Positions 511 to 18,402 of a stretch of DNA of 19,289 bases are shown here, piece by piece. The position numbers and the translations under genes were made by a program. How positions within the stretch are numbered: the first letter of the stretch is position 1; each line of letters begins with the position of its first letter. Source of the stretch: Perkinsus olseni (Eukaryota > Perkinsozoa > Perkinsida > Perkinsidae); the NCBI GenBank assembly GCA_013115135.1, contig JABANP010000752.1:1-19289 (forward strand). The letters are read 5' to 3'. Under the pieces are notes generated by a model, which was not told the origin of the DNA, made no database searches, and saw only the letters and a list, made by a program, of their open reading frames with translations.

Positions 511-532
511 GTTCCTCTGAGGAACTTCCTCA
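511..532. repeat. Octamer scar, X = gttcctca (perfect)
   Basis: The sequence is X(1-7), then the reverse complement of X, then X(2-8). The homologous flank of copy 3 has only a single tttcctca here, so copy 1 carries the inserted form. It lies in the promoter-proximal flank of copy 1. Confidence 0.9.
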
Positions 533-556
533 TCGTATTAAAGCATTGACCACCTC

Positions 557-558
557 AG
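557..558 (+). promoter_or_regulatory. Candidate splice acceptor AG upstream of copy 1 start
   Basis: A pyrimidine-containing ...cctcag lies 21 nt before the ATG. An AG sits at almost the same distance before the ATG in copy 2 (6536-6537) and copy 3 (9063-9062, minus). Perkinsids are known to use spliced-leader trans-splicing, so this may be the leader acceptor. A cis-intron using the conserved ggtaagc near 290 is the alternative. Position is seen; role is inferred. Confidence 0.35.
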
Positions 559-579
559 TCCCAACGTTGGATTATCCCT

Positions 580-1023
580 ATGTACCTCCACCTAACTGGT
601 CTGTGCTTGATCTTCGTTGTCGCTCAGTGCGGCCCTGAGGTCTTTCGCGGTGACACTGAGGATTCTTCTGGTGGACTGGGATCTCCCATCGATAAAACCT
701 ACACCTATTATCGCTCTTCCACTGGTGAGCCAGATATCCTGCAGTTCAAGTTCACTCGCGAGCAGGGCGGAAGGGTTTACATAACTCCCTATAAAGACCA
801 CCTCAAGAAAGGTCAATACGATTGTGGATATACTCTCCAGCAGAGCAGCGGTGCAACAGACTTCACCGTGACGCTGCACTCTCCATGTGACCAAATCGTG
901 GAGGATTCGGCCGGGTATTATGACAATTATTTCATCACTGGTTGCTATATTGAGAATGGATATCAGTATCTCCACGTCCCAACTGCCTCTACTGGAGTGG
1001 ACCTCTATCAGCTTCAGAGATGA
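580..1023 (+). CDS. Small secreted four-cysteine protein, copy 1
   Basis: I do not recognise the family by name. The 147-residue product starts with a hydrophobic signal-like segment (residues 1-16, MYLHLTGLCLIFVVAQ) and should enter the secretory pathway. Four cysteines are shared with copy 2: C17, C82 (in YDCGY), C103 and C122. Other shared motifs are SPIDKTY near 35, a FKFT..Q.GRV.IT block at 56-69 and a VPTA...DLYQL end. There is no membrane segment beyond the signal and no repeat. The start is set by alignment with copies 2 and 3, which begin at the same MYL. The 5' flank is conserved between copies, so expression is probably controlled in common. A role as a secreted surface or effector protein is only a guess. 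Confidence 0.75.
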   Translation: MYLHLTGLCLIFVVAQCGPEVFRGDTEDSSGGLGSPIDKTYTYYRSSTGEPDILQFKFTREQGGRVYITPYKDHLKKGQYDCGYTLQQSSGATDFTVTLHSPCDQIVEDSAGYYDNYFITGCYIENGYQYLHVPTASTGVDLYQLQR

Positions 1024-1190
1024 TATGTGTGATACGTTCGACGATAAACGATGACTTCAATTCTTGACCGAACGTTGTATCATTGAATGATAATCATTCT
1101 CATTGTTGAACGACCCTTTCCATGATTTTATGTGTGGCCCACCGCACAGTAGTACTGTACCAGTACCCATTACGAGATTTATTCTTGTCG

Positions 1191-1212
1191 TCCTCTGATA
1201 GAGGACCTTTGT
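1191..1212. repeat. Possible decayed octamer scar
   Basis: cctctg a tagagg a cctttg has the scar layout and both outer pairings, but two mismatches in the core. It sits in the copy 1 3' flank where alignment with copy 2 is interrupted. Confidence 0.4.
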
Positions 1213-1588
1213 TGTTACTAGTCATCGTTCTGGACTAGGAATGATCCCTATGCCTTTACTGGTTGAGTTGTACAGTCACGAATTGAGCGAGGGTTTCGCG
1301 AGCCTTTGTCGCGTCACTCAGGCCACCGTTCGAACACCCGGTGCTCGCTCCAAGCAAAGCACTGAAAGAAAAGGAGAAAGATGTGGAAGAACTGTGTCAT
1401 CAAAGACTCAGACTCTCGGACGAGCGATGGAAATACATGAGATTTGAGAATATTCATCCCCGCCTCGGGGAACCTGAGTCAGGGAAGGTCGGCTGACGAG
1501 CAGAAAATTTAGGTAGAGTGGCGCGGTGATTCCTCCGCAAGCCGATGCGCAGAGGACATCACATTTCCGGCCGGGGGGCGTAGCACCT

Positions 1589-1610
1589 ACGCGCCGGGCG
1601 CGTCGCGCCC
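1589..1610. repeat. Octamer scar, X = acgcgccc (perfect)
   Basis: X(1-7) at 1589-1595, its reverse complement at 1596-1603, X(2-8) at 1604-1610. All 14 dependent positions match. Confidence 0.88.
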
Positions 1611-1832
1611 ACTATTCAATAGTCGCTGCAACTGAGCCGCACTAGCCTCTCCTAACGGATAGATGTGCGACTGCGGGCAATTGTACCGTACAGAGTGACT
1701 GAGGGAGAAGACTGGTGAGCTTTGCGAGCTGGGCCGACTCCCAATCGAACTGCTCGATATTGTTGCTTCAATGCTTCCATATTCAGGAATTCGGGCACGC
1801 AAGGAATCGAAGAAGGGAGACCTCCAGGTGAA

Positions 1833-1854
1833 CCGGGGACTCCCCGGCGGGGAG
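1833..1854. repeat. Octamer scar, X = ccggggag (perfect)
   Basis: X(1-7) at 1833-1839, reverse complement at 1840-1847, X(2-8) at 1848-1854. It lies in the weak F-box-like open stretch. Confidence 0.88.
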
Positions 1855-2309
1855 AGAAGGAATAAAAACGTGATGATACTGTTTGAAAAAAAATTGAAAC
1901 CGTCCTTGGACCGTCCTTTCATTCTCTCCTTGAAGTTCAAGGAGGGCGCAAAGGGATGTTTCGAGATGTGACTCACATGTGAGTTGAAGTGCGACATTGA
2001 GACAAGGACAACCGCCAGGCTGAAAGTTCCAGAACTGCGTACGTTAAGCGTATGGGACTCTGTGAGACCCGCCAGAGTTGAGTCAACTATTTTTCTCGAC
2101 CGAGCTGACGGTAAAGAAAAAGTACTATGAGATTTTTGTCGTAAAGTAATAGTGGCGCTAGGCGGGAACGAACAAAGAAGGGAGAAGCAATGTTGAACCC
2201 TAGAAGGTGCCGCCCTCTACTAGAGCTTTCCCCCTTCAAGGCGGGAAAATCGGTACCAGGAATCCCTATGTGACACTTATAATGAGAGATCTTTTTGTAC
2301 CCGTCAAAT

Positions 2310-2380
2310 AAGCTTGCTTCGCTATCAGTACTACTGATTCAGTAGTCGAGGTTTTCAACTACTGATAGCGAAGCGAGCTT
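2310..2380. repeat. Long hairpin with nested palindrome
   Basis: Outer arms 2310-2330 and 2360-2380 pair over 21 nt with one mismatch. Their loop holds a second odd palindrome, 8+1+8, at 2330-2346. A short T run follows. It resembles a bacterial terminator in shape only; in this eukaryotic context I read it as part of the palindrome-rich background. Confidence 0.75.
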
Positions 2381-2614
2381 TTTTGCCAAGCTTCTCTTAA
2401 CTTGAGAGGTCTTTGAAGCAAATTATTTGGTAGCATTCATAGTTCTCCTAGTGAGTTTGCGGAACTGGAAGATCGCTATCAGCGATCCCGTACAAATATA
2501 GGAGCCGGCGGCAGTGACGCTGTCACTGTCAACGAGATGCCAGCTCGTTGCGACACTCGCGGTGCGCAGTACCGGTCGGGGTAGGCATTGCTCATTGAAG
2601 TTCCACGCGAGATA

Positions 2615-2636
2615 GTTGGAGACTCAAACTTTGAGT
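2615..2636. repeat. Octamer scar, one mismatch
   Basis: ttggag a ctcaaa c tttgag, flanked by the pairing bases g and t that the rule predicts. One mismatch lies in the first arm. Confidence 0.65.
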
Positions 2637-3254
2637 TCTGCTCGAGCACTGTTCTTGACTGTTTGAGACAGTTTAACGCGAAGTGCTCATTCAATGAACT
2701 TCATTGCGAAGACGCGATGTTTCGCTTGCAACAGTTTTTACTCCTAGGCGACATCCACGGACGTCGGAGTAACATCGTGGTAGTGGCTCTAAATTAAACT
2801 GCTAAATTTCAGCGTATCATATAACTGTGATACAGTGCGTTCTCTTTTGATATGCAAATCGCTAAAACTGAGCTTTCTTCGTTAGTATGGAGCTTTTGCG
2901 GGTGAAAGTTGGACTGCTCATGTATTTCTGAGAGAGGAATCCAATGGTGTATCGATCAGCCGTTTCATCGACCGTTTCATCGTTGTAGAGAGCGCGGACG
3001 CCGCGAAGTGAATTTCGCGCTTGCCAAGTGTTCGGTTTTGATATCAGGGTGGCCTACGCGCACGGTGCGCGTCGGACGTAGTCGGCCTCGAGGGTCACCG
3101 GGTGACGTGACGTCAGGGGCGTCCGTGAGACCGTGTCACGATACACCCGCCCAGCCGCCTCGCTTTCCTTCGTGAGGTCTCGCATACGCTCCTTCCAACC
3201 TCTGGCAGGTTGTTGCTTTATCCTGCAATTAACTTGGACATAGAGCGAAATGTC

Positions 3255-3276
3255 GTATCAGGCTGATACTATCAGC
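3255..3276. repeat. Octamer scar, X = gtatcagc (perfect)
   Basis: X(1-7) at 3255-3261, reverse complement at 3262-3269, X(2-8) at 3270-3276. It lies 63 bp upstream of the protease start codon. Confidence 0.88.
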
Positions 3277-3456
3277 GTCAACATATTGCCGATGTAGCAG
3301 GACGCGCTTCTCCTCAGAACAGTCGATTCTCCATTTCAATGCTGCAGGTAGTATCATTTATCTCGACCCTCCTAGTCTTCTCGAGAGCCGACATTGCCGA
3401 TGACCGGACGCTTGTATCCATCAGGAGGGCCAACCCATTTCCCAGATTCCTGCAAG

Positions 3457-3514
3457 CGGGGTCGACCTTACCCTTCGACGAAGGGTAAGGTCGACCCCGA
3501 CGAAGGGCCTTCGT
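3457..3514. repeat. Extended octamer scar, X = cccttcgt, in protease
   Basis: A 43-nt palindrome with a single central base (21+1+21, 3457-3499) is followed by a 7+1+7 palindrome (3500-3514). Both are built on one octamer: X(1-7) at 3471-3477, its reverse complement at 3478-3485 and again at 3500-3507, X(2-8) at 3508-3514. The first centre is the complement of X8 and the second the complement of X1. Net insertion is 36 nt and includes an in-frame stop codon. Confidence 0.85.
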
Positions 3515-3563
3515 GGATGTTGGTCTGGTGCCAGACATGCTTGCAACCCATACCGGCGCTAGA

Positions 3564-3585
3564 CGATTATCATAATCGGATTATG
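3564..3585. repeat. Octamer scar, X = cgattatg (perfect), in protease
   Basis: X(1-7) at 3564-3570, reverse complement at 3571-3578, X(2-8) at 3579-3585. The 14-nt insertion changes frame between the signal-peptide half and the propeptide half. Confidence 0.9.
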
Positions 3586-4758
3586 CTCCACTGAGCAGAC
3601 GGTTGCGCCTTGCTTGTCCAACGGTGCTGCAGTGAGGAGCTTGGCCACTTTGGGTGTTCAAATTATCAACACAGCCTCTGCAAACTGCAATGCTACTCGA
3701 GAAGATATGTGCCAATACATAGCTGATGCTGTCGAGACTTTGAGGCTACAAGTGTTATGCGAGCCCAACTACGCGATGGAGCTGAGCTCTGGAGGTGTCA
3801 AGAAGGTCGTGCTCGATGTGAATGATAAATTTACTGGAAGGCAGTGGAATCTAGCTTCGATCGGCATGAAAGAGGCCTGGCAGGCGTTGAAGGGCCGCCC
3901 ACTGCGAGAAGTCGTCCAAGCCGTTATTGACAGTGGCGTTGACTTCCGCCATGAGGACCTAGCTGGTAACATATTCTCGTATGAGAACTGCTCCCACGGT
4001 TACAACTTCTACGATGATAATAACGATGTTAGTGACGCTGAAGTGCTGGGCATTGCTGGTATACTGGGCGCCGCGACGAATAATGGCATTGGAGTAGCCG
4101 GTATCGCACCGGTGAAAATTATGCCAGTTAAAGTGTTCGGTTCGGGCCCCAGTGGTTCTGGTGCGGATATCGTGAAGAGCTTGGACTATACTATAGAAAA
4201 CGGGGCAGACTTATCGACTCATTCTTATGGCGGTAAGACAGACTCGATATTGGGAATCGCAATAGAAACGGCCGCTCTACGTGGACACCTCGTCGTGTCC
4301 ACAAGGGCTCTGATATCAGCGTCAATAAGCAATACCCATGTGCCTGGACGGAGCAAGTTGAAATGCCATGTGTAGCTTCCAGTGACAGAAACGGTCACCT
4401 CGCATCTTCAAGTAACTACGGCCCTTACGTTGACATCGCTGCACCCGGGGATCGGGTATTCACGACTAAACCTGGTAACAAGTACGGCTCCTTTTCTGGT
4501 ACCTCCTTTGCTGTTCCGCACGTCGCCGGAGCAGCCGCCCTTCTTTCCGGTTTGGGTCTTTCTGGAGCTGATGTCAGGAGGTCACTATTGGCCTCGGTCG
4601 GAGATCTCACTGATCGTTCTGGCCATAAAATTGCCGATTACGGGCGACTTAACGTTGCAAAAGCCATCGAAGTTGCTTTAACCAAACCAACCGTCGCTCC
4701 TAAGGAACGGCGTTCAGTCGGTAATTGTCAGGAAGTGTCAGGGAACGGTGTGAATTAA

Positions 4759-5590
4759 TGAGGTCGGAGATGACAGCGTCCACAAGGTTGGACGCATGTG
4801 AGTGGCGTCGCACTCACATGCGTCTGTCTCGTCTCGCCACTGTGGCGAAGACATGGGCGGCGCGGCACTGCACGTTCGTCTTGTCTCGTCTCGTCTCGCT
4901 AGCTTTGATCTTTTTTCGGTTTTATAGCTCTAACCTCCGCTCTTCTCTCGCTCATAACAGATTATGCACAGCGACTGGTCCATTACCCGCCAAGTCTCGA
5001 GTTCCCAGTCCGTCAATCCGAATGATAGCGGTCTCAGAGCTCTACGGGGACCCCCTACCAATGCCAACCGACTGACTGACTACTAGGATGTTTTCACTCC
5101 AATTTTTTTCACTCAGGTCCTACGATGGCGGGCCACCATTGGTGACACGTTTCGCCTCGGACAGAGAAGACTTGAGACCCACGGAGATACAGAAAACGCA
5201 ACTTGCATATAGAAATTGGCATTTTTGGCAGGAAACGATTTTTCAGGCCGAGGGAATGCATCAGAAGAGTGGTAACCACCCGGTGGTCTCGTACAGAAAC
5301 AATGTCGCATTCCTTGAATTACTCTTCGATCACCATGACTCATCGCGAGGATATAGATATAGATATAAATTGCGGATACGAGCTCCATTGGAGCTCGTTT
5401 CCGCAATTCTATTACCCTTGGTAACTGTGTACAAGTAACTGTAGTGTACTTGAAGAACTCAATAGGGTAACTCGAGAGGAGATGATAATGTTAGTAACAG
5501 CGAAAGACATACAGAGACAGATTGTGTAAGCTTAAGTAGGAAGGACTCCCTCAGAAAGGGACAACAATTGTGTAGATACATCACAGTAAC
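4759..5590. other. No convincing gene; hairpins and microsatellite
   Basis: A 14-bp-arm hairpin with 6-nt loop lies at 4791-4824, a 7+1+7 at 4834-4848, a (tctcg)n-like run near 4878-4900 and a (gatata)n run at 5349-5366. The 116-codon stretch at 5088-5438 reads through the microsatellite and the 41-nt palindrome and shows no domain, so I do not call it. Confidence 0.5.
5368..5408. repeat. 41-nt odd palindrome
   Basis: Arms of 20 nt around a single central base (5388), one mismatch (5377/5399). It adjoins the gatata microsatellite. No second half that would make it a complete octamer scar was found, so it may be a one-sided version. Confidence 0.85.
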
Positions 5591-5679
5591 CCTATGGCCC
5601 TGCTGGTGAATAAACTTCATGTGGTTAATCAGTGGAAGAGGAAAAATAGGCGCCGGTTTCATCGAACGGAGATCCCAGT

Positions 5680-5701
5680 CCGCCAGTCTGGCGGCGTCAG
5701 A
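5680..5701. repeat. Octamer scar, one mismatch, in copy 4
   Basis: cgccag t ctggcg g cgtcag, with both predicted outer pairs (c/g and t/a). One mismatch lies in the last arm. Confidence 0.65.
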
Positions 5702-5767
5702 GTTCCCGGCCCAGAAGAAACCTCATTGTCAGACCTCAGACCCACAGACAGCAGATATGAAGATGAA

Positions 5768-5789
5768 GTGCAGAGTCTGCACTGCAGAC
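5768..5789. repeat. Octamer scar, X = gtgcagac (perfect), in copy 4
   Basis: X(1-7) at 5768-5774, reverse complement at 5775-5782, X(2-8) at 5783-5789. The matching site in copy 1 (minus sense gtctgtgc) is a single octamer, so this is an inserted state. Confidence 0.9.
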
Positions 5790-5800
5790 CCGTGGCGCGT

Positions 5801-6204
5801 CAGACTGCGGAAACTTGCCGTCCTGTTGTGTTTTCGCTTGTGCCGCAGGCGTGTCACGTAGTGCAGATCCCGAGCTTCGGGGCTTGCTATTTGACCGGAG
5901 ACCTTTATAACATCACATCTCATTATCGAATCTTCATTGCGTAAGCGAGCATTACATCCATCTTTCAACCTTCGGTACGATATTTGTCAGCTTTTGTGCT
6001 GACCGCACAGTACCATAGAGATTGTCTCTTCACCTCGAATAGATTTCAAGATTCGGGCACTCCACTGAGGGATGCTCTGCCGACTGTGAGCACGCCTGTG
6101 ATCATCCCGGGGAAACGTGTTTCGCTATCCAATGGAATGTCATGGGAAGTATATCATCAGCTGGACAAGATTTTCTGAGCTGTTCAGACTGAACACCCAC
6201 TGCA
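5801..6204. other. No convincing gene
   Basis: Open stretch 5984-6178 (64 codons) has no recognisable domain. A one-mismatch scar lies at 6174-6195. Confidence 0.45.
6174..6195. repeat. Octamer scar, one mismatch
   Basis: ctgagc t gttcag a ctgaac with the predicted outer pairs t/a and t/a. One mismatch lies in the first arm. It lies just before the conserved 5' flank of copy 2. Confidence 0.65.
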
Positions 6205-7265
6205 CGCCTGCCCGTATGAACGGCTGTGAACACAGGGCTCCGCACAAGAAAGCATGCCTCGACGATTAACGAATAACTCACGCATAAGTATGATGGACAA
6301 TTCAGTACCCGCTTACCGAAAACCGGCATGCCGAGACCGCTCCGAGGATGCTTCCCTATCCGGGAAACTTGAACGAAATTCTATATCCCTACCTTTAGGG
6401 TCCATTCGGAGACTAGGAGACACTACTACCAAGGCACCCGCTGTCGAATCAGCGATTAGCTAAAATTTCGCAGTCTTCGCACCCTCGTTGATGGCGCGAT
6501 AGTCCGAGTTTGAGGGCTTGAAGACCAACCATTTCAGCATGTCTACCTTCTCTCAATGTACCTGCGCCTATCTAGTCTGTACTTGATCTTCGCTGTCGCG
6601 GAGTGTGATTCTGAAGTCTTCCTCGGCAATAAGGAGGACTATTCTGGTAGACTCGGAGCTCCTATCGACAAGACCTACGCCCTGAACACTTCTTCAAGTA
6701 AGGAGCCACTTATCCAGAGATTCAAGTTCACGAGCCAGCAGAGTGGGAGGGTATTCATAACCGCTATCAAAGGCCGCCTACGCAAAGGACAATACGATTG
6801 TGGATATAATATTGCTAACGGCAGCAACAACGTGACGCTGATGGACCCATGCCGCCAAGTTGTTCAGGACTCGAACGGTTATTACGGCGATTCCTTCCTG
6901 AGTGGCTGCTATATGAGTTCTAACAATCAGTTCTTGAATGTGCCCACAGCGACCGTTGGGTATGATCTCTACCAGTTGGAAGAATGATCCATATGATTAG
7001 TTAGCTGATCAACCTACCTTATTATCATATGTACGAAAAGCAACAGCGGAGTGTAGGATCCTAAGAGGATGATTGATGATGTCGATTCTTGACACCAAAG
7101 TTTAAGATTACAGTTGTTGAGAAACTCTTCTGAACTAGCTATAATACAATACGTATTCCGAGATCCATTCTTGTTGCCAAGTTGTCCGGAATGGTTGTAG
7201 GCTCGCTTCCCATGTTGAGTTGAACAATAACCACTTGAGCGAGAGTTGACGGGAAGTTCGGGAAC
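6205..7265 (+). repeat. Secreted-protein family repeat unit, copy 2
   Basis: The copy 2 gene and its flanks. The 5' flank shares the ggctccgcaca block (6237) and the gttgatggcgcgatag block (6487) with copies 1 and 3 but is more diverged. The 3' flank shares the cgagat..attcttgt block and a tgttgagttg..ttgagcgag block (7205-7255) with copy 1. Confidence 0.65.
6556..6987 (+). CDS. Small secreted four-cysteine protein, copy 2
   Basis: A 143-residue paralog of copy 1, also unnamed. It has a signal-like start (MYLRLSSLYLIFAVAE) and the same four cysteines at C17, C82, C99 and C118. APIDKTY, RFKFT..QSGRVFIT, KGQYDCGY and VPTA..GYDLYQLEE are aligned one for one with copy 1. The loop between C82 and C99 is four residues shorter. 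The frame is intact and conserved at the amino-acid level despite many base differences, which suggests selection. An out-of-frame ATG at 6539 precedes it; the start at 6556 is chosen by paralogy. The candidate acceptor AG is at 6536-6537. Confidence 0.75.
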   Translation: MYLRLSSLYLIFAVAECDSEVFLGNKEDYSGRLGAPIDKTYALNTSSSKEPLIQRFKFTSQQSGRVFITAIKGRLRKGQYDCGYNIANGSNNVTLMDPCRQVVQDSNGYYGDSFLSGCYMSSNNQFLNVPTATVGYDLYQLEE

Positions 7266-7382
7266 AAAAGTTGCGGCATTCAAGAAGGCTATTAAAGGGA
7301 TGTAGCAGCGGTGTGAATGGACAGAGTCACTGATTCTGCGTCACTCACTGTGTCGAGTCCACCCACTCGGCCCCGTCAATAG

Positions 7383-7404
7383 GAAATACGGTATTTCAAA
7401 TACC
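7383..7404. repeat. Octamer scar, X = gaaatacc (perfect)
   Basis: X(1-7) at 7383-7389, reverse complement at 7390-7397, X(2-8) at 7398-7404. Confidence 0.88.
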
Positions 7405-8119: not shown

Positions 8120-8141
8120 GTCTTCACTGAAGACTCTTCAG
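8120..8141. repeat. Octamer scar, X = gtcttcag (perfect)
   Basis: X(1-7) at 8120-8126, reverse complement at 8127-8134, X(2-8) at 8135-8141. Confidence 0.88.
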
Positions 8142-8157
8142 CATCTCATTGAGATAA

Positions 8158-8550
8158 GTCCGGTGTGTTAGATAATGACGATGATACCATCGAGGCACGG
8201 ACGAGTTTGTAGACTCCGTCGCGGATAGAGTGACAGCAGATCAAATTTAAGAAAGAGTGCATACTCAACCCGTATTGGGTGTCATGTTGAGGAAGAGACG
8301 AATATGTTCACTCGTAATTGGCCCAATTAAAGTACGCATACCCAATTAAATTGGGTATGCGTCACTGGAAGGAACACAACAAATCGTGGCAATAAAGCTT
8401 CGACAGCTCGAATCAGGGAGACAGAATTTTACAGTCATCATATTATTTAATCAAGACCCTTGAACGGTATGCGCTTTTCACAAGCATAGCGCAGACCGAC
8501 ACGTCCGCCCCAAAGTAAGTAGGTTCAAGATAGGATTGCGTTATAATGTG
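8158..8550 (+). repeat. Dispersed repeat, copy A
   Basis: About 390 bp that aligns in the same orientation with 14404-14812. Shared blocks include gacgatgat..catcgaggca, gcatactcaacc, gacgaatatgt, gtcactgga, acaacaaa..gtggcaa, aagcttcgacagctcg and gcgcagaccgacacg. No long frame is common to both copies, so this looks like a non-coding repeat or a transposon fragment of unknown type. Confidence 0.7.
8315..8362. repeat. Extended octamer scar, X = taattggg, in repeat A
   Basis: X(1-7) at 8315-8321, reverse complement at 8322-8329 and again at 8341-8348, X(2-8) at 8349-8355. The second palindrome extends to 14+1+14 (8334-8362) by mirroring the right flank. Repeat B carries the empty site: cg-tagttaag-tacgcg at the same place, which aligns base for base with the scar-free form (four transitions). 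Net insertion is 33 nt. Confidence 0.9.
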
Positions 8551-9040: not shown

Positions 9041-9600
9041 AAAGTTAATCAAAAGTTGAGACTGAAGCGGTCAACGCTTTAATACGATGAGGAAACTATC
9101 GTTCCATCAACGAGGACGACGTAGCTTCGCAATCTTAGCTGAGGTGCTGTAGTACAGCAGCTGTACCGCTACTTGTTGTCTACGACGTAGCGTGTCCCGA
9201 ATTTGGAATTGCCAATACAGCGCATTCTTGTCCTTGCGTCTCATTTCTGAGTATGCAATAGCTTGTCTGAACAAATCTCCGTTCGCCGGACCGCGAAAAC
9301 AAAAAGTTCAAAGCGCCAATCGTGCTTACCAGCGAATTTGTTGCTGTTCGTCATTGTGCGAGCCTTGCCCTTTCGTGCGGAGCCCCCCCCTGAAGTTCAG
9401 GGCCTGAACTCGGTGTCCCGCGCTGCCGTGCCGCCCGGCTCTGGGATTGCTCTTCGACCAGAAGTCCATCAAACCTCAAACCATCAAACAGATAATTCCG
9501 TGACGGACAAGGCATTGACCTCGGCCCTCCGGCAATTTGGCTTCTGTATCCTCAGCCTTGTGCGCTACTTCAAGGCTAAGAGTCCAAGCGCGCGACTCGC
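9041..9600 (-). promoter_or_regulatory. Conserved 5' flank of copy 3
   Basis: Minus-strand flank that aligns with 25-579 upstream of copy 1 over its whole length, including ggtttt cgcggtccggcg, ttcgggacacgctacgtcg, gcgaagctacgt and catcgtattaaagc near the start. It differs by a scar in each copy. Conservation with the gene suggests it carries the promoter. The candidate acceptor AG is at 9063-9062. Confidence 0.6.
9145..9166. repeat. Octamer scar, X = tgctgtac (perfect), in copy 3 flank
   Basis: X(1-7) at 9145-9151, reverse complement at 9152-9159, X(2-8) at 9160-9166. Copy 1 has a single octamer at the aligned place (atacagcc near 456-472, opposite sense). Confidence 0.9.
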
Positions 9601-9738
9601 ACAATGAGTCAGGCAGTCGTACCCTTGAGGTCGAGGCTTGCAGTAAATTTCTTAGGCAAGTCGCGGAGCCGCTCCGCGAAAAATTTTCGCATAGTGGAAG
9701 AAATGACGGTGTACGAGTGGATAGTGGGTCACCCAGTC

Positions 9739-9760
9739 ATTCCTAGTAGGAGTTTCCTAC
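9739..9760. repeat. Octamer scar, one mismatch, X = attcctac
   Basis: ttccta g taggag t ttccta with predicted outer pairs a/t and g/c. The mismatch is in the middle arm; the two outer copies are identical. Confidence 0.68.
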
Positions 9761-9786
9761 AGACACCCACTGTGGGTGTCTGTAGG
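9756..9786. repeat. 31-nt odd palindrome
   Basis: Perfect 15+1+15 around the T at 9771. It overlaps the scar at 9739-9760, so two events may be stacked. Confidence 0.9.
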
Positions 9787-10629: not shown

Positions 10630-10932
10630 ATAATTTTTCTCCTTTGCACAGATAAATATCCATGAATTTGTTATAAATGTTTATTTGTATGATACAAATT
10701 GTATCCATACATTTATGCATTACGCATAACATGTATACATAAAATTTACATGTATAATCTATAGTTTCGTGTGCTATGAAAATGAATGTATTAATATTAC
10801 TTCACCAACTTGATATTCCCTCATTTGTTATGTTAAAAATAGCCTTACATCATAGCCATATGAATATCCATGCATATCTTTGCACTCACTAAATCTATAG
10901 ATATACTGTATTCTAATACTATAGATATTCAG
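10630..10932. other. AT-rich island
   Basis: About 300 bp that is far richer in A and T than its neighbours, with overlapping palindromes such as atgtatacat and two acatgtata repeats (near 10729 and 10750). The next exon of the dehydrogenase starts right after it, so it could be the 3' part of an intron. An inserted AT-rich element or organelle-derived DNA are alternatives. Confidence 0.55.
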
Positions 10933-13217
10933 ACAACTTCACAGCGCTTTCTCAGGTTCTTCGTTCTCGGTAGTCCTGTGGCGAAGTCCCCCTCACCAGC
11001 ACTGCACAACCACATATTTAAGACCCTCGGATTGCCTCACGAGTGAGTGGTCTAGCCTGGGTCTGCTGGACGAATCTTTGCGCTGCGCAAGATACTCGAG
11101 AGTCTCGAGTCGAAACTCGACACGAGCAGCTTGGATGATGTGCCCTCTCTGATGTCCCGGACGACTTTGGTGGTGCCAGTTTCACCATATCGTTGAAAGA
11201 AAAGGTATGCCGATCTTTCGGCTTCTTTCCGCAGGGGATGCTAGCAAAAACTTTTCATTTCAGAGTTGTTCGCGATCAATTTCTTGCGTCTCGAAGTTGT
11301 TGGTGAATTTTTTCCATTTCAGTGTTGTTTGCAAATAGTCTTCATTATAGAGTAATTCGTGAATAGTTCTCATTCAACAGCCAGCAGCGTCGTGTCTCCT
11401 CTGTCCAGGTTTTCCATTCTGTGTCCTGCGCTTGATTCTCTTTTGTCTCAGTGTTATTCGCGCATTTTTTGTCCGCGAATAGCGTTCATTTGTAACCACT
11501 AGCGTATGTTAAGGTTTTCCATGCTGTGTCCGGTGAGCCCACGTAAGGATATCAGAGTTGGCGTTATCAGCACAAGTGGTGAACACCATCGTCAAGCACG
11601 ACGACGGCTCTCTCTCATTCCACAACACTGACACGCTGGCCCTGGCAGAGTCCATGTGAGATCCCCTCGCCTGGTGTCTCTCTGTTGATGCGCTCTGTTG
11701 TTAGACGGACTAAGGCGGCTCTGGCGTCCACGTGTTTGGTGGTCGGCACTGGCGGAGCTGCCAGAGCGGCGTGCGCTGCTGCGGAGCTGCTGGGCATGGA
11801 AAAGATTTTCGTATGGGGGAGAGAACCGAACAAGGCCGCGGAGCTTGCTCAAGACTTCGTGAATGGCCAGGTGAGATTTAGCCCCATCTAGACTACAGAC
11901 AGTAGTGAAGAGTGAAAGTCCTTCGCTGAAGGAGCCATTGTAGCACAAAACCAATGAGAAAGGCGGAAACTAGTAAACTGTAAACTTGTACCTGCTGAAG
12001 GAATAATAGCTGGTAAACTTCTCAGTATGATACTCAGTAGATGACATCTGCTAGATGCGGCGGAAAGTTGCGTAGCGAGCGAGGCGAGCGGTGCATATAC
12101 CGTCACTTCTGCGCTTTTCTGTGCGTTCGTTCGTTCGTTCGTTCGCCTGGAAGCTTCAAGTTGACGCGATGTGTCTGAGCAGCTCACTCCACCAGGTGGA
12201 GTCCACCTTTGCCAAGATCGAGGCGGGAGGGCTTCGATAATTTTGATTGAACTTATGTTACTGAACGGAACATTGCGCATGGCCCTGCGCTCAGGTCTGC
12301 CCATCGGACCCCGGCACTGGTAGTTCTGACGTTATCATCGGCTGCGTGCCAGCTGGCGACGCACAGGTCTGGTCGCAGTGGCGGTTCTCAAAAGATCCGT
12401 TGGTACTTGAGATGGCGTAAGTTCGAGGTATCCATTGGCGTGAGGAAGCGCGAGTGTCAGAATCCGAGAGCCGACCGGTCGAGAGATCTGAGACCGAGCG
12501 CCATTCGTGTCAACCTCTTTTGATCATCATAAGTGAAAAGCAAGCCTCCTGCATTACCTGAGCACCAGCGTGGCATCGAGCATTTTATTTCGTTCGGGGC
12601 GCTTTGTTGACATTTCTAGTGATTTTGCTGTGCCTTTCGAGTTTCACTACTACTGACTAAAAATGCCTTCAATTCGCCTAGAATATGTATTCGCACAGAA
12701 GATGAACGTCTCGAGACCGCCGTGTCACTTCCGTAGCTCACCTGGCTCTCATATAGGATTCTTGCCCTCCCTATCGGAGCGTTCGTCAGCTCAGGGGTTG
12801 TCCTATCATGAGAAACGCCGGTACATTCCGCAGAAAACTCCATTAACGCGAACGGCAGGGGAATTGGGGTGTCGCAATATCGTCCATGGCCTCGAGATAT
12901 TGGTGAGCATCACCCCGCCTACTTGGTTCCAGGCCAGGGCGTTTTAGGTCCTTCAGGGTATTGAGCAGAGCATGCTGTGGACGGGAATGCCTAGGGAAGC
13001 CTTCGGAACTGGTGTAAGAAAAGACAGACAACGTCCGCCCGTCGCATTGCGCTCAGTGGCAGGTACGGCCCTGTGGTGCAATTTTATGGGCAGACGAGCC
13101 GATAGAGTTGACTGGATGATCACATCAGTCTTGCGAATGCAGCTGTTTGTTTTCCTACCTCTTAACACGACGTTTCAAGCAGCGCTGTTCTTCTGCTCGG
13201 AGATCGTCAACAGATAG
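10933..13217 (+). CDS. Shikimate dehydrogenase, AROM C-terminal domain type, multi-exon
   Basis: Catalyses NADPH-dependent reduction of 3-dehydroshikimate to shikimate in aromatic amino-acid synthesis. Exons read: 10933-11042 (FFVLGSPVAKSPSPALHN, substrate-binding Ser pair); 11092-11204 (DFGGASFTISLKEK, catalytic Lys); about 11537-11656 (VVNTI, then NTD with the catalytic Asp); 11706-11870 (VVGTGGAARAA dinucleotide site); 12295-12416 (DVIIGCVPAG); about 12822-12902 (QKTPLTRTAGELGC); from 12948 (QGIEQSMLWTGM). Donors are GTGAGT, GTATGC, GTGAGA, GTGAGA, GTAAGT and GTGAGC. The motif set and the LWTG end match the last domain of pentafunctional AROM; the other four domains are not visible upstream. 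Oddities: a one-mismatch scar at 11095-11116 and an extra CT near 11140 in exon 2, and no AG at the start of exon 6. The last exon may stop at a donor at 13014 or run to TAA-like end 13217. Probably a gene in early decay, or one needing unusual RNA processing. Confidence 0.82.
11095..11116. repeat. Octamer scar, one mismatch, in dehydrogenase exon 2
   Basis: tcgaga g tctcga g tcgaaa with predicted outer pairs c/g and g/c. If its 14 nt are left out, the frame entering from exon 1 (GLPHE) continues with the Tyr expected in the family (GLPHEY) and then LDTSSLDDV. Confidence 0.8.
11255..11535 (+). repeat. Degenerate tandem repeats inside dehydrogenase intron 2
   Basis: Three to five imperfect units sharing tttcag.gttgttcgcgaat..ttcatt, and two copies of ggttttccat.ctgtgtcc about 104 bp apart (near 11408 and 11512). 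This accounts for the length of this intron (352 nt or less) compared with its 45-49 nt neighbours. Confidence 0.6.
11657..11705 (+). other. Short intron, 49 nt
   Basis: GTGAGA...TTAG, phase 2. It separates the NTD motif exon from the nucleotide-binding exon. A 45-nt intron of the same kind is at 12903-12947 (GTGAGC...TTTTAG). Such sizes point to a small-intron eukaryote. Confidence 0.8.
12125..12147. repeat. (cgtt)n microsatellite in intron 4
   Basis: Five uninterrupted cgtt units within the 424-nt intron 11871-12294. Confidence 0.9.
12187..12208. repeat. Octamer scar, X = ctccacct (perfect), in intron 4
   Basis: X(1-7) at 12187-12193, reverse complement at 12194-12201, X(2-8) at 12202-12208. 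It lies inside a spliced-out region, so it has no effect on the protein. Confidence 0.88.
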
Positions 13218-13342
13218 ATTGAAACGTTCCTTAATAACGAGCAATACATGAATTAGTCATCACGTCTTCCTGCTCTAAGGCTTCGACCGACTTCATCTGC
13301 ATCTTCCTCCATCCTCGCGGTCACCGTCCCAGTCGCCATTTA
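13218..13342. other. Spacer, nothing recognised
   Basis: Short stretch between the last dehydrogenase exon and the LINE tail. It presumably holds the dehydrogenase 3' end signals, but none is identifiable. Confidence 0.4.
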
Positions 13343-14142
13343 CTATTATTATTTTTTTACAGCAAATATTCAATGGTGGGCCTCGTACAAAACAGAGGCG
13401 GAAAACCAAAAGTTGTGCCTACCCGGCACTACAATAAGCCCCTGCGAGCATCGAGATACTGCATGAGGGCCGAACAAAGTTGATTGAAGGACTTGCGTCG
13501 CTTCAAATCAACAATTAGTTTATATAAACGGTAGGGGACACCACCTTTGACCCTATTCCTAGCCTGCTCCAGGAGCGGACAGGAGAGGAGGTAGTGCCGC
13601 GTGTTCCCCACCTGCGCCCCACATTCACACTCTGGCGAGTTGACCACCCCGCATCTATAGAGATGGGCTGGGGTTGGGGCCCTTCCGAATACAACGGCAC
13701 TGCTAGCTGCCGTGACTTCCCCGCGGATCCACAAACGAGCGTGTGAAGCGCAGTAAAAGAAGTCATTGACAGAAGTGCCCAGGCTGGCTCTCTTGTCTGA
13801 CCACCACTTGCGCAGTGACAGACGGCCAGCTTCTCCTTGATACCGCCGAAGAGTCCTCACACTGATTTCCGTCTCCGCAGAGACTTCCCTCATGGAGGCA
13901 CCCTTGGCTGCCAGCTCATCGGCACGTTCGTTGGCATTGATGGAACTGTGCCCCGGTACCCATCGAAGGGATACCCTACCAGGGATTTCGGACAATGACA
14001 GATAGATCTGTCTCGCCTTATCCCACCGGGCCGTGGATGATCGGGACGACAGGATCTTGAGTACCGCCTGAGAGTCCGTGAAGATCTCCCAGGTCTCGTC
14101 ACCCGCTGTGAGATCGTCAACAAAGATAACACGAAAGGCATC
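13343..14142 (-). mobile_element. 5'-truncated non-LTR (LINE) retrotransposon
   Basis: The minus-strand RNase H reading frame is followed by a short 3' region ending in an A run plus AATAATAAT (plus strand 13343-13358). The 5' side stops abruptly near 14142 with no reverse transcriptase. This is the usual form of a 5'-truncated LINE copy. No target duplication could be identified. Confidence 0.7.
13429..14142 (-). CDS. LINE RNase H and C-terminal zinc-knuckle region (partial)
   Basis: Open from 14142 (just after an in-frame TAA at 14145-14143) to TAG 13431-13429, with no start codon that need be real because the 5' end is lost. The RNase H domain shows FTDSQAVLKIL (catalytic Asp) and RWVPGHSSINANERADELA (His and last Asp). 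Downstream comes CECGAQVGNTRHYLLSCPLL, the Cys/His cluster found at the end of many LINE ORF2 proteins. In the element it would remove RNA from the RNA/DNA hybrid. It is uninterrupted by scars, so the copy is probably young, but it cannot transpose alone. Confidence 0.85.
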   Translation of the reverse strand, partial: DAFRVIFVDDLTAGDETWEIFTDSQAVLKILSSRSSTARWDKARQIYLSLSEIPGRVSLRWVPGHSSINANERADELAAKGASMREVSAETEISVRTLRRYQGEAGRLSLRKWWSDKRASLGTSVNDFFYCASHARLWIRGEVTAASSAVVFGRAPTPAHLYRCGVVNSPECECGAQVGNTRHYLLSCPLLEQARNRVKGGVPYRLYKLIVDLKRRKSFNQLCSALMQYLDARRGLL

Positions 14143-14173
14143 TTATGAAATGTCTTCCGTTCTTGCCGAGGAA

Positions 14174-14230
14174 GTACCCTCATCATGAGGGTACACGAGT
14201 TCGGGAGACACATGAGGGCCTCATGTGTCT
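14174..14230. repeat. Extended octamer scar, X = ccctcatg
   Basis: X(1-7) at 14177-14183, reverse complement at 14184-14191 and again at 14211-14218, X(2-8) at 14219-14225. The left palindrome is 10+1+10 (14174-14194), the right 12+1+12 (14206-14230). The stretch between them is unexplained filler. Net insertion is 41 nt. Confidence 0.85.
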
Positions 14231-14313
14231 TTGATCGTGGGAGTCAAGTCGGACGAAGTAGCTCGAGCGCCTTCGAAGAGCTGTGCGAAACAGAGAACCA
14301 GCCTGGCCCAAGA

Positions 14314-14335
14314 TTCTCCGCCGGAGAATCTCCGG
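14314..14335. repeat. Octamer scar, X = ttctccgg (perfect)
   Basis: X(1-7) at 14314-14320, reverse complement at 14321-14328, X(2-8) at 14329-14335. The left palindrome extends to 10+1+10 (14311-14331). Confidence 0.9.
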
Positions 14336-14403
14336 CAAGCAGATTGTGTGGCGGCGGTTGCGATAGCCACTTGAGCCACGTCGCCCGGGAACGCTCGAGG
14401 TAG

Positions 14404-14812
14404 GTCGGGTGCGTTCCATGACGACGATGATGGCATCGAGGCATAGACGGGTTTTGCGCTATACGCCGCTGATTGAGCGATAGCAGATAAAACTTGGGAA
14501 ATGACGCATACTCAACCTGTCAAGTTGATGAACGGACGAATATGTACACCCGTAGTTAAGTACGCGTCACTGGAGAGAACACAACAGAGCATGGCAACAA
14601 AGCTTCGACAACTCGTTTTCTGCGAGACAGATTTGTTGCGGCCGTCTCGTTAATGTACTCAAGAAATAACTATTTCTGAAATTCTGAAGTCTTGAATCAA
14701 GACTTACTCTTTACATTAGGACCCTCGAACGCTACGCGCTATTGACGAGCATGGCGCAGACCGACACGACCGCTACGACATAAGTGGGTTCAAAATTGAT
14801 TCAACGAATATA
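14404..14812 (+). repeat. Dispersed repeat, copy B
   Basis: Aligns with 8158-8550. It gives the empty site for the scar in copy A and has its own 9+1+9 palindrome at 14687-14705 that copy A lacks. The right end is cut by the mariner-type element, and a few bases of homology resume after it (TATAAT at 14809-14812 joined to 15547). Confidence 0.7.
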
Positions 14813-15544
14813 CTGTGTGTGCCAGTTTGATATGCAAATGACATTTATGCTTATATATAACTCGTATGATGGAATCTCGGGATGAATCATACTTCAAATG
14901 GAAGGCCATCGTGATATGAATCCAAACCGTGACCTAGTTCAAATCGATCAACCGTTTCGCGGAAGATATCACCGGAAAACCGTTTCGCGACGAAAATCAC
15001 TGTGCCAATTTCGATACGCAAGTTGTGTTTTCCATCTCCATGGGCCGCAAATCGTTCCTGTCCGAGTCGGAGCGTGCCATCATCGTGCAGCAATTGGCAG
15101 GGGGGAAATCTACCCTTGAGATAGCCCGTTATCTACGTCGAGACCACAGGACCATCAAGATCCATCGATCCAGCCGTCAGAGATCAGGAAACTCACGGAA
15201 TCGATGGATAGCCGGCTGGAGAAAGTTTTCTTGGCCAAGGGTCCCTTGGCAAGGGAGGATACGTGCACATGTGACTAACATGAAACTATGAGTTCCTACA
15301 CACTCTAGAGTCTCTTTTTCAACATGCTTGTTGCGTTACGTATCGAAATTGGCACAGTGATTTTCGTCGCGAAACGGTTTTCCGGTGATATCTTCCGCGA
15401 AACGGTTGATCGATTTGAACTAGGTCACGGTTTGGATTCATATCACGATGGCCTTCCATTTGAAGTATGATTCATCCCGAGATTCCATCATACGAGTTAT
15501 ATATAAGCATAAATGTCATTTGCATATCAAACTGGCACACACAG
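14813..15544 (+). mobile_element. Tc1/mariner-type element with 206-bp perfect inverted ends
   Basis: Ends CTGTGTGTGCCAGTTTG and its inverse are flanked by TA on both sides (14811-14812 and 15545-15546), the target duplication of Tc1/mariner elements. The left arm 14813-15018 and right arm 15339-15544 appear identical over 206 bp. The 320-bp core encodes only a transposase N-terminal piece. The perfect arms suggest recent insertion, or ongoing gene conversion between arms. Confidence 0.93.
15040..15291 (+). pseudogene. Tc1/mariner transposase, N-terminal DNA-binding fragment
   Basis: The ATG at 15040 begins MGRKSFLSESERAIIVQQL and continues to LAGGKSTLEIARYLRRDHRTI, a helix-turn-helix of the type that binds inverted ends in Tc1-like transposases. 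The remaining residues have no DDE catalytic domain and the frame ends at 15291. It cannot catalyse transposition. It could still bind the ends and act as a repressor, but that is speculation. Confidence 0.8.
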
Positions 15545-16175
15545 TAATTTCTACCGAGCAACTCTTAAGCGACATCCTCGTACGGAATCGGCAATGCCGC
15601 ATTCCTATCACAAACTTTCTAGTATCCGAAGGCAATGGGTTCCACCTTGGAAAGGAGCTTTACAGCATAATCACCGCTCCAAGTCTTCTTCCGAGCAGAG
15701 TTCATGGTGAGCTCCGTCTGTGCGATGACAATCTGCGTTGAATGGATCGGTAAAACCCCTGGCAATAAGAAAGCCGATTGGGGCCGACTATGGAAAATGG
15801 ATAAGGTTACCGCGAACGGTCTTCGTTCAATCGAACAGCATATGATTTCGCTCTCGAAATCACCATGTATACATATTAGTCAACCCTTGGACCATGAAGC
15901 TGTAACTGTCCATTGTGATGCGAGTTATGACGGCTACTGCTGGTGTGTAGAGAGCTATGGAAGCAATTATGATCCGACACTCTTGAGCGAATACGCTTCA
16001 TTATTTAAGCCAAAAGAAAGGAGTGCTTGGCATGTGAATAGGAAAGAGATATATTGTCTGGGTCATGCTCTACAGAACGGAGCAACACTAGCTAAGCGCT
16101 TCCCATTGGGCCGAATTCACTCACTGACTGTGGTATCTGATAATCAGTGCGCAGTCAGTTGGGGAAATTCATTGG

Positions 16176-16197
16176 CCCCAAAATTTGGGGTCCAAAT
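16176..16197. repeat. Octamer scar, one mismatch, in RNase H
   Basis: cccaaa a tttggg g tccaaa with predicted outer pairs c/g and a/t. Leaving out 14 nt puts WGNSLAP in one frame with RSFDATAIN downstream. Confidence 0.8.
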
Positions 16198-16218
16198 ATG
16201 CGCTCATTTGACGCAACA

Positions 16219-16554
16219 GCCATTAACAGGGTGGCCCAGAAATTGGAAGAATGGATCATTCTTCCCATTCCCGGGAATTTCCGGGAATTCTCGGGAATAT
16301 AGCCGGGAAGAAAGAATGCATTCTTCCCCATTGAAACAAGCCCCCCAAATTTTCTTCGCGCGCCTTCGGCGCGCATATCCGCCCGTACTTGATGCTGCCT
16401 CAAGTCGAACCATTGGAATGAAGCACCTAGATACCCAGGAAGAATCTCAACCATTGTTCCAGGGAATATTGAGCATTCTTTCTTCCCGGGAATTTCCGGA
16501 ATTCCCGGTGAGAAAGAATAGCATTCTTCCCCGCTGGTCCACCCTGGCCATTAA
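16219..16554 (+). mobile_element. hAT-like miniature element, 320 bp, with 8-bp duplication
   Basis: The element 16227-16546 begins CAGGGTGGCCCAG and ends with the inverse of CAGGGTGGACCAG. Exact duplicates gccattaa lie at 16219-16226 and 16547-16554. Imperfect inverted ends extend about 90 bp, with shared CCGGGAATT and GAAGAAAGAATGC blocks. An 8-bp duplication and a CAGGG end are typical of hAT transposons. There is no transposase, so it is non-autonomous. The host RNase H frame (DATAIN before, NRLCFNL after) is continuous across a single copy of the octamer. Confidence 0.9.
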
Positions 16555-16842
16555 CCGCTTGTGTTTTAATCTCAATGAGATAATTGAGGATTTAAAAGAA
16601 AACAACGGCATCACAGTGTCAACAAGACATGTTGAAGGAGAGCAGAATGCCCGTGCGGATGCCCTTTCGAGATTGAAGTCGAAACAGCCTAACCTCGAGA
16701 TCCCATCCATTGATACTGGCCAGTTCGCCAAAAGGAACCATCTCGGAAATATCCGAGTCGTGGGCGATAATGCAGCCATTTTCGATATGGCTCCAAACGG
16801 TCCTTCTACTGAAGGTATCCTTTATTTTATACCTGCTGCAAA

Positions 16843-16891
16843 CTCCTCAGTCCTTTTCGCTACCAAGTTGGTAGCGAAAAGGACTGAGGAG
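16843..16891. repeat. 49-nt perfect odd palindrome
   Basis: 24+1+24 around the G at 16867, within the linker after RNase H. It is the longest perfect palindrome in the window. It has no second centre, so it does not meet the complete scar rule. Confidence 0.93.
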
Positions 16892-17248
16892 CGCCCGCAG
16901 GGCACGAGCCCCGAAATTTCGCGCTGAAATTTCATGAAATTTCGTGGGCTCTGTTGAAACGATGAAATCGATCACCCCGGGCGATAACACAATCTCCCGC
17001 GCAGTTATCCAGTGCGCTTAACCAGACCGAGTGCACCTGGCTTGAAACCATGATTCCAGGGTCTACCAGCATCATGGAAGTACCATGGTGTTAGAGCCGG
17101 GTGAAATACCATTGGTACAGCTAGTTGATCACGGCTTGTATCTCGTCGGTTCAGAGTTGGGTTCCATATCCCGGAGTAACTCCGGAATAACTGTTATTAA
17201 TCCGTGGCCCCACATTCTCGTTACGTTATTCTGATACGGGTAGCTATG

Positions 17249-17270
17249 GAGGATAATATCCAGTGGATAT
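17249..17270. repeat. Possible decayed octamer scar
   Basis: aggata a tatcca g tggata has the layout, with one arm mismatch and one failed outer pair. Confidence 0.4.
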
Positions 17271-17404
17271 CACTCGAAAAGTTCTAATCGAACTTCAGAG
17301 TAACTCAACAAGATCCAGCGAATTCAACTTTCATATCGCAAATCAGGCGACGAATTAGCACTGGTCGCAGCACAGATCAATTAAAACTTCACAATGTGGA
17401 CGAG

Positions 17405-17426
17405 GATGGACTGTCCATCATGGACA
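17405..17426. repeat. Octamer scar, X = gatggaca (perfect)
   Basis: X(1-7) at 17405-17411, reverse complement at 17412-17419, X(2-8) at 17420-17426. Confidence 0.88.
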
Positions 17427-18009
17427 CACAGTGTTCACATACTATCTGGAACTTCCAGACTAAAAGTACAGAGTATATACACTAAGCGGGCTGCCAACGT
17501 TGATTTGCCCACACTTATGCAACCGGCAAAACTGTTAAGCGCCACACCGATGGGGAGCTAAATTCTTGACGCGCGGAGCGCGTTTAAGATTTGATGGCCC
17601 AAGCGTGCGTTTCATGAAATTCCATGAAATTTCAGCATGAAATTTCGCTTCCATATTTCACAGCGCGTCCACCCCGGTTTTGGCACATTGTGCCGAAACC
17701 AGGTGGCCCTCTGACTCAGTCGATGATGAGCCACCTTACCTTGATGGTATCGTAGAGGAATCATCAGAAGACATCATTAACAAACTACAGAGCTTGTATA
17801 ATTCTGATGATGTAAATAACTTGCACGACTCCAAGGTATATGGTGTTTTGATTACTGATCTCTTGAGAGTATTCAAGGAGCCAGATTCTCATCATACTCC
17901 CGAGGCTGAGAAATTGATAGCTGGGGGGGGGCAAGAGGACAACAGTTTGCATGGACTGATGATCTCCCTGTTTAAACTGATTTCCATAGAGGAAAGAAGA
18001 GAAGTCGTA

Positions 18010-18031
18010 CCCTGCTGAGCAGGGCCTGCTC
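18010..18031. repeat. Octamer scar, X = ccctgctc (perfect), in integrase
   Basis: X(1-7) at 18010-18016, reverse complement at 18017-18024, X(2-8) at 18025-18031. Leaving out 14 nt joins the HRGKK-coding frame upstream to the LLPNKW and zinc-finger frame downstream. Confidence 0.9.
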
Positions 18032-18380
18032 CCTAATAAATGGTTTCAATTATGGGCAATGCAATGTTACCATGATAACCCGATAATAGGGGGGCATCGT
18101 GGAACCCCACGATGTATTGAGATGATCAATACACTTGGATTCTGGTGGCCCAGCATGAATGAACTTTATTCAATAAAGACGTGGTGGCATTCACTTCCTC
18201 TTGTTAATTATGCCAAATTGGCAAGCCAGTTGGGAGATTGATATCTCCGGTACTTCAAGAGAGAAGGCCTGGTGCAAGATTCAGTAGTATACAGATTGAC
18301 TTTATTGGTCTGATTAATGATACTGAAAGATCTTCCGGTCATTGGACCTACATGGGGTAATCATTATCGAAGCTACTAGT

Positions 18381-18402
18381 GCCGCGAATCGCGGCCCGCG
18401 AT
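18381..18402. repeat. Octamer scar, X = gccgcgat (perfect), in integrase core
   Basis: X(1-7) at 18381-18387, reverse complement at 18388-18395, X(2-8) at 18396-18402. Leaving out 14 nt keeps one open frame from IIIEATSA to the CQSDNGP motif. Confidence 0.92.

Follow-up and report, generated by a model that had tools for sequence, protein, structure and literature searches.

Stereotyped 22-nucleotide inverted-octamer scars in the genome of Perkinsus olseni, probable footprints of hAT excision

Hairpins on the flanks of the excised element are presented as established for hAT transposons in PMC6900584, and for one of these, Kat1, the nick is described as falling mostly 1 nt from the terminal inverted repeat (TIR), with formation of a hairpin. 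Hermes, also a hAT element, makes 8-bp target duplications of the form nTnnnnAn according to PMC2803484. The footprints of Ac/Ds that PMC5873905 describes for Candida, yeast and plants are diverse and for the most part short; some are deletions and others palindromic insertions, with the complement of the transposon-adjacent base at the centre, and a hairpin model accounts for them. The longest palindromic insertion given there for Candida is 3 nt, and other work cited in that paper gives arms of up to 20 nt for Saccharomyces cerevisiae, 47% of the footprints having arms of at least 3. How do footprints in Perkinsus olseni compare with these? We analysed a stretch of 19,289 nt from this species (contig JABANP010000752.1, positions 1 to 19,289; hereafter the window), in which many 22-nt sites, here called scars, follow a single rule built on an octamer X. 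Each of them is probably the repaired gap left after excision of a hAT element from between two copies of the 8-bp X, and the length of the product would be set by annealing through X. P. olseni is a parasite of shellfish. Its footprints resemble those of Ac/Ds in being palindromic about the complement of the transposon-adjacent base, and they resemble what is described of Hermes and Kat1 in the flank hairpins that they imply and, for Hermes, in the 8-bp nTnnnnAn target. Note that Hermes and Kat1 are biochemical systems, while the events in P. olseni are read from the genome sequence.

In the rule, a scar consists of X1-7, then the reverse complement of X, then X2-8, 22 nt in total, and every site was checked base by base. 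The window is contig C726 of the 61.5-Mb assembly (other contigs are named C24, C25 and so on, and the fetched stretches L019 and so on), and a base-by-base scan finds 19 exact sites in it. A preliminary description of the window had listed 14 such 22-mers. The rule is exact in all 14, and the list was incomplete, since the sites starting at 1078, 2324, 9388, 10684 and 15235 had been missed. It had also listed seven sites with one mismatch; each of these is indeed one minimal substitution off the rule, even if 2615, 6174 and 7770 have two mismatches on a literal reading of the octamer, and five more at 2685, 9863, 10118, 18157 and 18954 bring the total to 12. When the arm length was varied from 4 to 15, the exact counts in the window were 7, 3, 1, 0, 19, 0, 0, 0, 0, 0, 0 and 0. 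The number of bases lost per junction was also varied, from 0 to 3: length 8 with one base lost on each side gives the 19 sites, and every other combination of losses together gives 1. The length-9 matches in which the two losses are unequal (7 and 4) share their start with a site already listed or begin one base ahead of it.

Is the rule confined to this contig? The sample for this question was 219 kb, made up of the window and 20 stretches of 10 kb, and it was complemented by genome-wide pattern and flank searches; seven of the stretches were picked for similarity to the window and the remaining 13 lie at fixed, non-random positions. At arm lengths 7, 8, 9 and 10 the 20 stretches hold 1, 79, 0 and 1 exact sites, and the whole 219 kb holds 1, 98, 0 and 1. 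No exact length-8 site appeared in 1 Mb of Markov-simulated sequence (five rounds). Sites with 0, 1, 2 and 3 substitutions number 98, 67, 72 and 135, where five simulations expect 0, 0, 3.8 and 20.2. Sites with 4 and 5 substitutions are in excess too, and they were left unused as an age spectrum because palindromes with a one-base centre, described below, may inflate them. The density of exact sites is uneven, from 0 to 12 per 10 kb. The 13 similarity-blind stretches hold 30 exact sites, which corresponds to about 14,000 in the assembly by a rough scaling from fixed positions. Genome-wide, the pattern for X=GTCNNGAC, with six of the eight octamer positions fixed, has 26 matches, and the free positions also follow the rule in 25 of them; some of these may be duplicates, because the 26 matches represent only seven distinct sequences. 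The 9-nt analogue of the pattern has no match in the genome, and the 7-nt analogue has one, in which the rule is broken. Thus length 8 stands out in the comparison of arm lengths that the preliminary description had proposed, both in the 219-kb sample and, genome-wide, for the one octamer class GTCNNGAC, apart from small excesses at lengths 5 and 6 that are weighed below. Its claim that a mechanism acts on arbitrary octamers is supported.

The octamers have a palindromic consensus, GTCnngAC. In a logo of 101 de-duplicated, symmetrised octamers the values are.36 for G1,.42 for T2 and.37 for C3, with the mirror image on the other half including A7 at.42, and the 20 bases flanking the scar on either side are nearly flat in composition. 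Among pattern classes of the same composition, the genome-wide counts are 26 for GTCNNGAC, 8 for GACNNGTC, 3 for CTGNNCAG and 0 for CAGNNCTG, the last two being reversed-pattern controls. The scar octamers fit the hAT preference nTnnnnAn. Are there hAT elements in the genome with such a preference? The domain PF05699 has 21 matches in the genome, and L037 carries an open frame of 581 aa with both PF05699 and DUF4371. The matches on C25 and C209 are bracketed by TAGAGATGGGCA ends on both sides, and such ends lie within about 320 bases of five more, on C129, C204, C206, C504 and C684. Octamers adjoining TAGAGATGGGCA ends score higher on the scar matrix than background (p 0.0008). They were taken from 20 of the 35 matches, and these 20 include no fewer than three duplicate pairs as well as the two ends of a single element; the reversed control has 5 matches. 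The octamers of the CAGGGTCGTTGG family also exceed the background (p 0.006; seven octamers, one site counted twice). Perfect 8-bp duplications flank six of the seven copies of the CAGGGTCGTTGG family, two of the seven being one site in two contigs. They also flank 19 of 20 fetched copies of a 320-bp miniature inverted-repeat transposable element (MITE), which has 35 nearly full-length copies among 40 scored (of 57 candidates), the copy in the window included.

What does a site look like where the scar is missing? Counterparts of much of the window were found on C24 in two separate regions, with 92 to 98% identity over the longer pieces (matches below 90% identity were filtered out), and these are taken for a second haplotype or a close duplicate. 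Nine indels between the window and C24 are exactly 14 nt long, and all nine read as scars. Six are in the window copy only, at indel positions 2325, 2616, 7383, 9146, 9740 and 14315, and three in C24 only, at window positions 2663, 6187 and 9660; six of the nine are exact, and those at 2616, 9740 and 9660 carry one substitution each. The alignment also contains indels of other lengths. A wider comparison used pairs of flanks in the fetched sequence, with at least 85% identity, both flanks reaching the junction and a gap of at most 60, shared scars being counted from both sides. The 62 pairs, which derive from 47 scar sites, have a gap of 22 nt in 36 cases, 8 nt in 16, 7 or 9 nt in 7, and 21, 23 or 28 nt in 3; an 8-nt relative exists at 11 of the sites and a 22-nt relative at 34. 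Of the 16 octamers in the 8-nt gaps, 12 are identical to X and 14 are within one base of it. Gaps above 60 were excluded from this count; those of several thousand are taken for combinations across tandem copies, and one of 350 for a 320-bp element within the flank. For nine scar sites the joined flanks were searched in the whole genome, and 40 of the 185 candidates were scored, on length only; scarred relatives (+13 to +16) came up at four sites and relatives of plain length (within 3) at six. Because the unscarred relatives carry one single octamer, the scar is a gain of 14 nt at a single octamer. In L021 and L022 (C24:125001-145000) there are tandem copies, two of them about 6.5 kb apart, among which scars are present in some and missing from others.

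The tip of a hAT flank hairpin is one unpaired base, and for this reason an opened hairpin that is read through should appear as a palindrome with a one-base centre. Outside the scars there are 32 palindromes with arms of at least 10 around a 1-nt centre, whereas the remaining centre sizes from 0 up to 8 have between 0 and 2 apiece (the count leaves out scars, exact or with at most 2 substitutions, and keeps haplotype duplicates). Many of the one-base-centre palindromes are paired, the left and the right one implying the same octamer. Beside the 22-nt class there is a second class of footprint, with both arms at least 3 nt, their sum at least 8 and an interior of at most 80 nt, in which two hairpins are joined through filler. 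It has 28 members in the 219 kb, or 24 after de-duplication. The same criteria yield 2 for a control of length 6 without loss and 0 for one of length 10 with two bases lost, both matched in core length; nothing turns up in any of three simulations, nor in controls whose core is 7 (length 9) or 8 (length 8). Second-class octamers also beat the background on the scar matrix (p 0.015; 25 octamers). The arms range in depth from 3 nt, which is the threshold, to 25 nt, and both are at least 8 in 10 of the 24 footprints. Loss of one base and its replacement by the complement at both junctions is common to the 98 exact sites and the 28 second-class footprints, as a signature in sequence only.

How might both classes arise? 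Insertion of a hAT element would duplicate X, as is shown for the resident elements. The transposase would then nick one base into each flank and the flank ends would be sealed as hairpins, with the single complement of X8 at the tip on the left and that of X1 on the right, in keeping with the signature seen at the junctions. A host nuclease would open each hairpin at a depth that may vary, as it does in the second class, and the products would be 3' overhangs, the left one holding the reverse complement of X and the right one X itself. Because of this arrangement, the overhangs would be complementary over exactly the octamer at any opening depth beyond X; the two 8-nt stretches are perfectly complementary and therefore would anneal. 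With the unpaired tails trimmed and the gaps filled, the result would be X1-7, the reverse complement of X and X2-8, a net gain of 14 nt for any X. Since annealing, trimming and fill-in suffice, the 22-nt form could be reached without any nuclease measuring out 8 nt. Where the strands fail to anneal, end joining of the opened hairpins with filler may follow, and the unequal arms of the second class would result. We infer that an element was once present at any given scar. Scars can far outnumber elements, because cut-and-paste transposition would leave one scar per hop. We lean, with some reserve, towards the broader view that P. olseni channels hAT hairpin breaks into one product through octamer annealing, and that its genome holds datable records of single hops on the order of ten thousand.

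Hairpins are opened asymmetrically in V(D)J coding joints as well, with palindromic additions known as P-nucleotides, and the coding ends share no duplication, so that no stereotyped annealed product is expected there. The likeness of these RAG-made joints to the sites in P. olseni is the hairpin on the flank, as described in PMC6900584. Another likeness is found in mPing, for which PMC4561436 reports that the target duplication itself steers the repair of the excision site. mPing differs in that it belongs to PIF/Harbinger; the same report suggests staggered cuts for it and states that its excision is generally precise, whereas in P. olseni hairpins would form first, and the copies would then anneal in inverted orientation and leave 14 nt behind. 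Among the literature titles and abstract openings that were covered, subscription papers being mostly outside that coverage, none describes a genome in which a single full-length inverted-target scar predominates.

Does the dominant product call for a nuclease that measures its cut? In the model of the preliminary description the excision is the same, and a measuring nuclease, or the transposase itself, cuts each hairpin at a distance of precisely 8 nt from its tip, where the duplication ends, the overhangs then annealing untrimmed. This would explain the 22-nt class directly. Moreover, 8 is the commonest single arm length in the second class (9 of 48 arms), and one arm or both measure exactly 8 in 8 of the 24 footprints; this mode speaks against depth-independent annealing and would suit a nuclease with a tendency to cut where the duplication ends. 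However, hairpin opening is not uniform, because the second-class arms span 3 to 25 nt and both are at least 8 in 10 of 24 footprints. The uniform full-length opening proposed earlier is thus not supported, and we regard exact nicking as unlikely. The second class, the most telling evidence of all, supports hAT hairpin excision and favours annealing over a uniform 8-nt opening. Serial template switching in the course of replication or break repair, which had been named as the main alternative, would copy the octamer reversed and then back with no transposon involved. Such a process is able to make a short inverted copy between direct copies, and the small excesses at lengths 5 and 6 could include events of this kind, but it neither fixes the length at 8 nor loses exactly one base per junction. 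It predicts neither a palindromic target preference restricted to the octamer nor pairs of one-base-tip hairpins that share an octamer, differ in depth and have filler between them, and we consider it improbable in the extreme. The hAT geometry of that description, an 8-bp duplication with a one-base-tip hairpin on each flank, is supported, as are a hAT-like target preference and the presence of hAT-type elements with 8-bp duplications in this genome. Transib/RAG elements have a target-site duplication of 5 bp, which the scars do not share: in the 219 kb arm length 5 has 21 sites, with 3.3 expected from uniform sequence and with related copies and footprint regions contributing to the count, while length 8 has 98 with next to none expected. 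Could the element have come from another cut-and-paste family with 8-bp duplications? The families P, KDZ/Zisupton and Mutator-like have such duplications. Merlin is a further candidate, since related sequences are reported from Perkinsus marinus, with duplications of 8 or 9 bp and ends that begin GG (PMC8101967). The flank hairpin, however, is described as the path taken by hAT elements and by V(D)J recombination (PMC6900584), and the octamer preference matches both the hAT nTnnnnAn form and the resident hAT-type ends, so that an origin from any of these families, judged without a search aimed at them in this genome, is very unlikely.

Several observations weigh against hAT excision followed by octamer annealing and should be set beside it. 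No site that is scarred in one copy and occupied in another was found in the flank comparisons or the joined-flank searches. The preliminary description had proposed comparing the scarred, occupied and empty states of the same site; scarred/empty and occupied/empty pairs do exist, and the scarred/occupied pair was not found. For 20 sites occupied by the 320-bp MITE, 40 of 109 candidates were scored, touching 11 of the 20 sites, and none is 14 longer. The duplications of this MITE fit the scar matrix without significance (p 0.08; 21 duplications). The MITE as source of the scars is thus unsupported, and because of these two results no source family is named. The small excesses at other arm lengths are 21 sites at length 5 and 3 at length 6 in the 219 kb, where uniform sequence would give 3.3 and 0.2. 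At length 7 there is 1 site with 0.01 expected, and there is 1 site at length 10. Several of the sites of other lengths fall in or beside 8-nt scars or second-class footprints, and some recur in related copies; the length-10 site lies in the second-class footprint L029:7149, one length-6 site in the one-substitution scar at 7770, and the length-7 site overlaps a scar at L022:8288. The 21 length-5 sites also include others that lie outside footprints and repeated copies. The looser controls for the second class are not empty either: a core of 5 yields 4 (length 7, loss of 1) and 3 (length 9, loss of 2), and shortening the core to 4 raises these counts to 17 and 5. Finally, P. olseni differs from Ac/Ds, as far as the latter is described in PMC5873905, in being dominated by one 14-nt product (98 exact sites against 28 second-class footprints), and in that short footprints, whether 1 to 5 added nt or a near-tandem octamer, are not clearly commoner than the chance scaling from length-7 and length-9 controls would predict.

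If hAT excision with octamer annealing is the right reading, the genome offers a natural assay for the opening of hairpins and for end joining templated by the target. Every base of the dominant product is predicted from the octamer, and the minority class shows the two hairpins separately. Hairpin tip, opening depth and repair choice could then be inferable for single past events from nothing but the sequence. Since each scar carries its own error check, its decay could date it, and given one scar per cut-and-paste hop, scars would count hops even after the loss of the element. Scars are also a source of 14-nt insertions, a frame-shifting length, as in the nine indels between the window and C24. 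Only 7 of the 98 exact scars lie inside long open reading frames (ORFs), which make up 14.6% of the bases (p 0.04), a weak deficit only, and across the 20 stretches scar density shows no correlation with long-ORF content (Spearman 0.16, p 0.49).

The 19 exact scars of the window differ in the state of their relatives. C24 is likewise scarred at 1589..1610 (X=ACGCGCCC), 1833..1854 (X=CCGGGGAG), 3255..3276 (X=GTATCAGC), 3564..3585 (X=CGATTATG), 8120..8141 (X=GTCTTCAG), 10684..10705 (X=TTTGTATC, newly found), 18010..18031 (X=CCCTGCTC) and 18381..18402 (X=GCCGCGAT), and it has a relative with a gap of 22 for 12187..12208 (X=CTCCACCT). For 5768..5789 (X=GTGCAGAC) C24 is scarred with a gap of 28 that contains a short extra repeat, and for 9388..9409 (X=CCCTGAAC, also new) L019 is scarred with a gap of 21 at a run of C. 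The relative of 1078..1099 (X=TATCATTC, new) in L020 is scarred too. Empty relatives carrying the octamer X are found in C24 for 2324..2345 (X=ATCAGTAG, new) and 14314..14335 (X=TTCTCCGG), in L019 and L023 for 9145..9166 (X=TGCTGTAC), and in L021 for 511..532 (X=GTTCCTCA; single octamer, gap 8); 7383..7404 (X=GAAATACC) is a 14-nt indel relative to C24. The flank-comparison list has no relative for 17405..17426 (X=GATGGACA), and 15235..15256 (X=CCAAGGGA, new) lies in a mariner-like insertion that C24 is without. The one-substitution scars, 22 nt each, are at 2615..2636 and from starts 2685, 5680, 6174, 7770, 9739, 9863, 10118, 11095, 16176, 18157 and 18954. As for their surroundings, the scar at 2324 is located within one arm of an inverted repeat, and that at 15235 is held by a fold-back element of about 730 bp (14813-15544), with ends of about 200 bp, Tc1/mariner-like by eye.

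Five second-class footprints lie in the window. At 3471..3514 (X=CCCTTCGT) the opening depth would be 22 nt for the left hairpin and 8 nt for the right. Arms of 4 and 8 nt are found at 4801..4848 (X=AGTGGCGA), and arms of 8 and 15 nt with 4 nt between them at 8315..8355 (X=TAATTGGG); at both sites C24 has the plain octamer, which makes indels of 40 and 33 nt, respectively. The footprint at 9723..9778 (X=AGTGGGTG; arms 6 and 16 nt) encloses the one-substitution scar 9739-9760, which is missing from one C24 copy, and that at 14177..14225 (X=CCCTCATG; arms 11 and 13 nt) is present in the same form in C24 (L022:5683). At 14675-14705 an insertion of 22 nt relative to C24 ends in the one-base-centre palindrome AAGTCTTGA.A.TCAAGACTT, has no left partner, and is probably a one-sided hairpin product. 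Elements and their targets are represented as well. The octamer GGTCCATT at 4977..4984 is an empty target, and the same site in C24 is filled by a 592-bp CAGGGTCGTTGG element (114227-114818), the flanks having been matched by eye. The 320-bp non-autonomous hAT-type element of the window, with TIR CAGGGTGGCC, is in place at 16219..16554 with the 8-bp duplications GCCATTAA on either side, and a long open frame (15704-16927) passes through it without a stop.

Among the genes of the window, the subtilase gene at 3614-4758 is broken into two frames, PF00082 lying in the first portion, and C24 differs from it by indels of 10 nt and 6 nt. For one protein of the window 11 relatives are listed, its own entry and ten assigned to P. 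olseni. Copies of a small protein family lie at 580-1023, at 6556-6987 and on the reverse strand near 8700-9030, and the listed relatives are all from P. olseni; with the third copy as query, there are 18 matches in the genome, 11 of them in C24.

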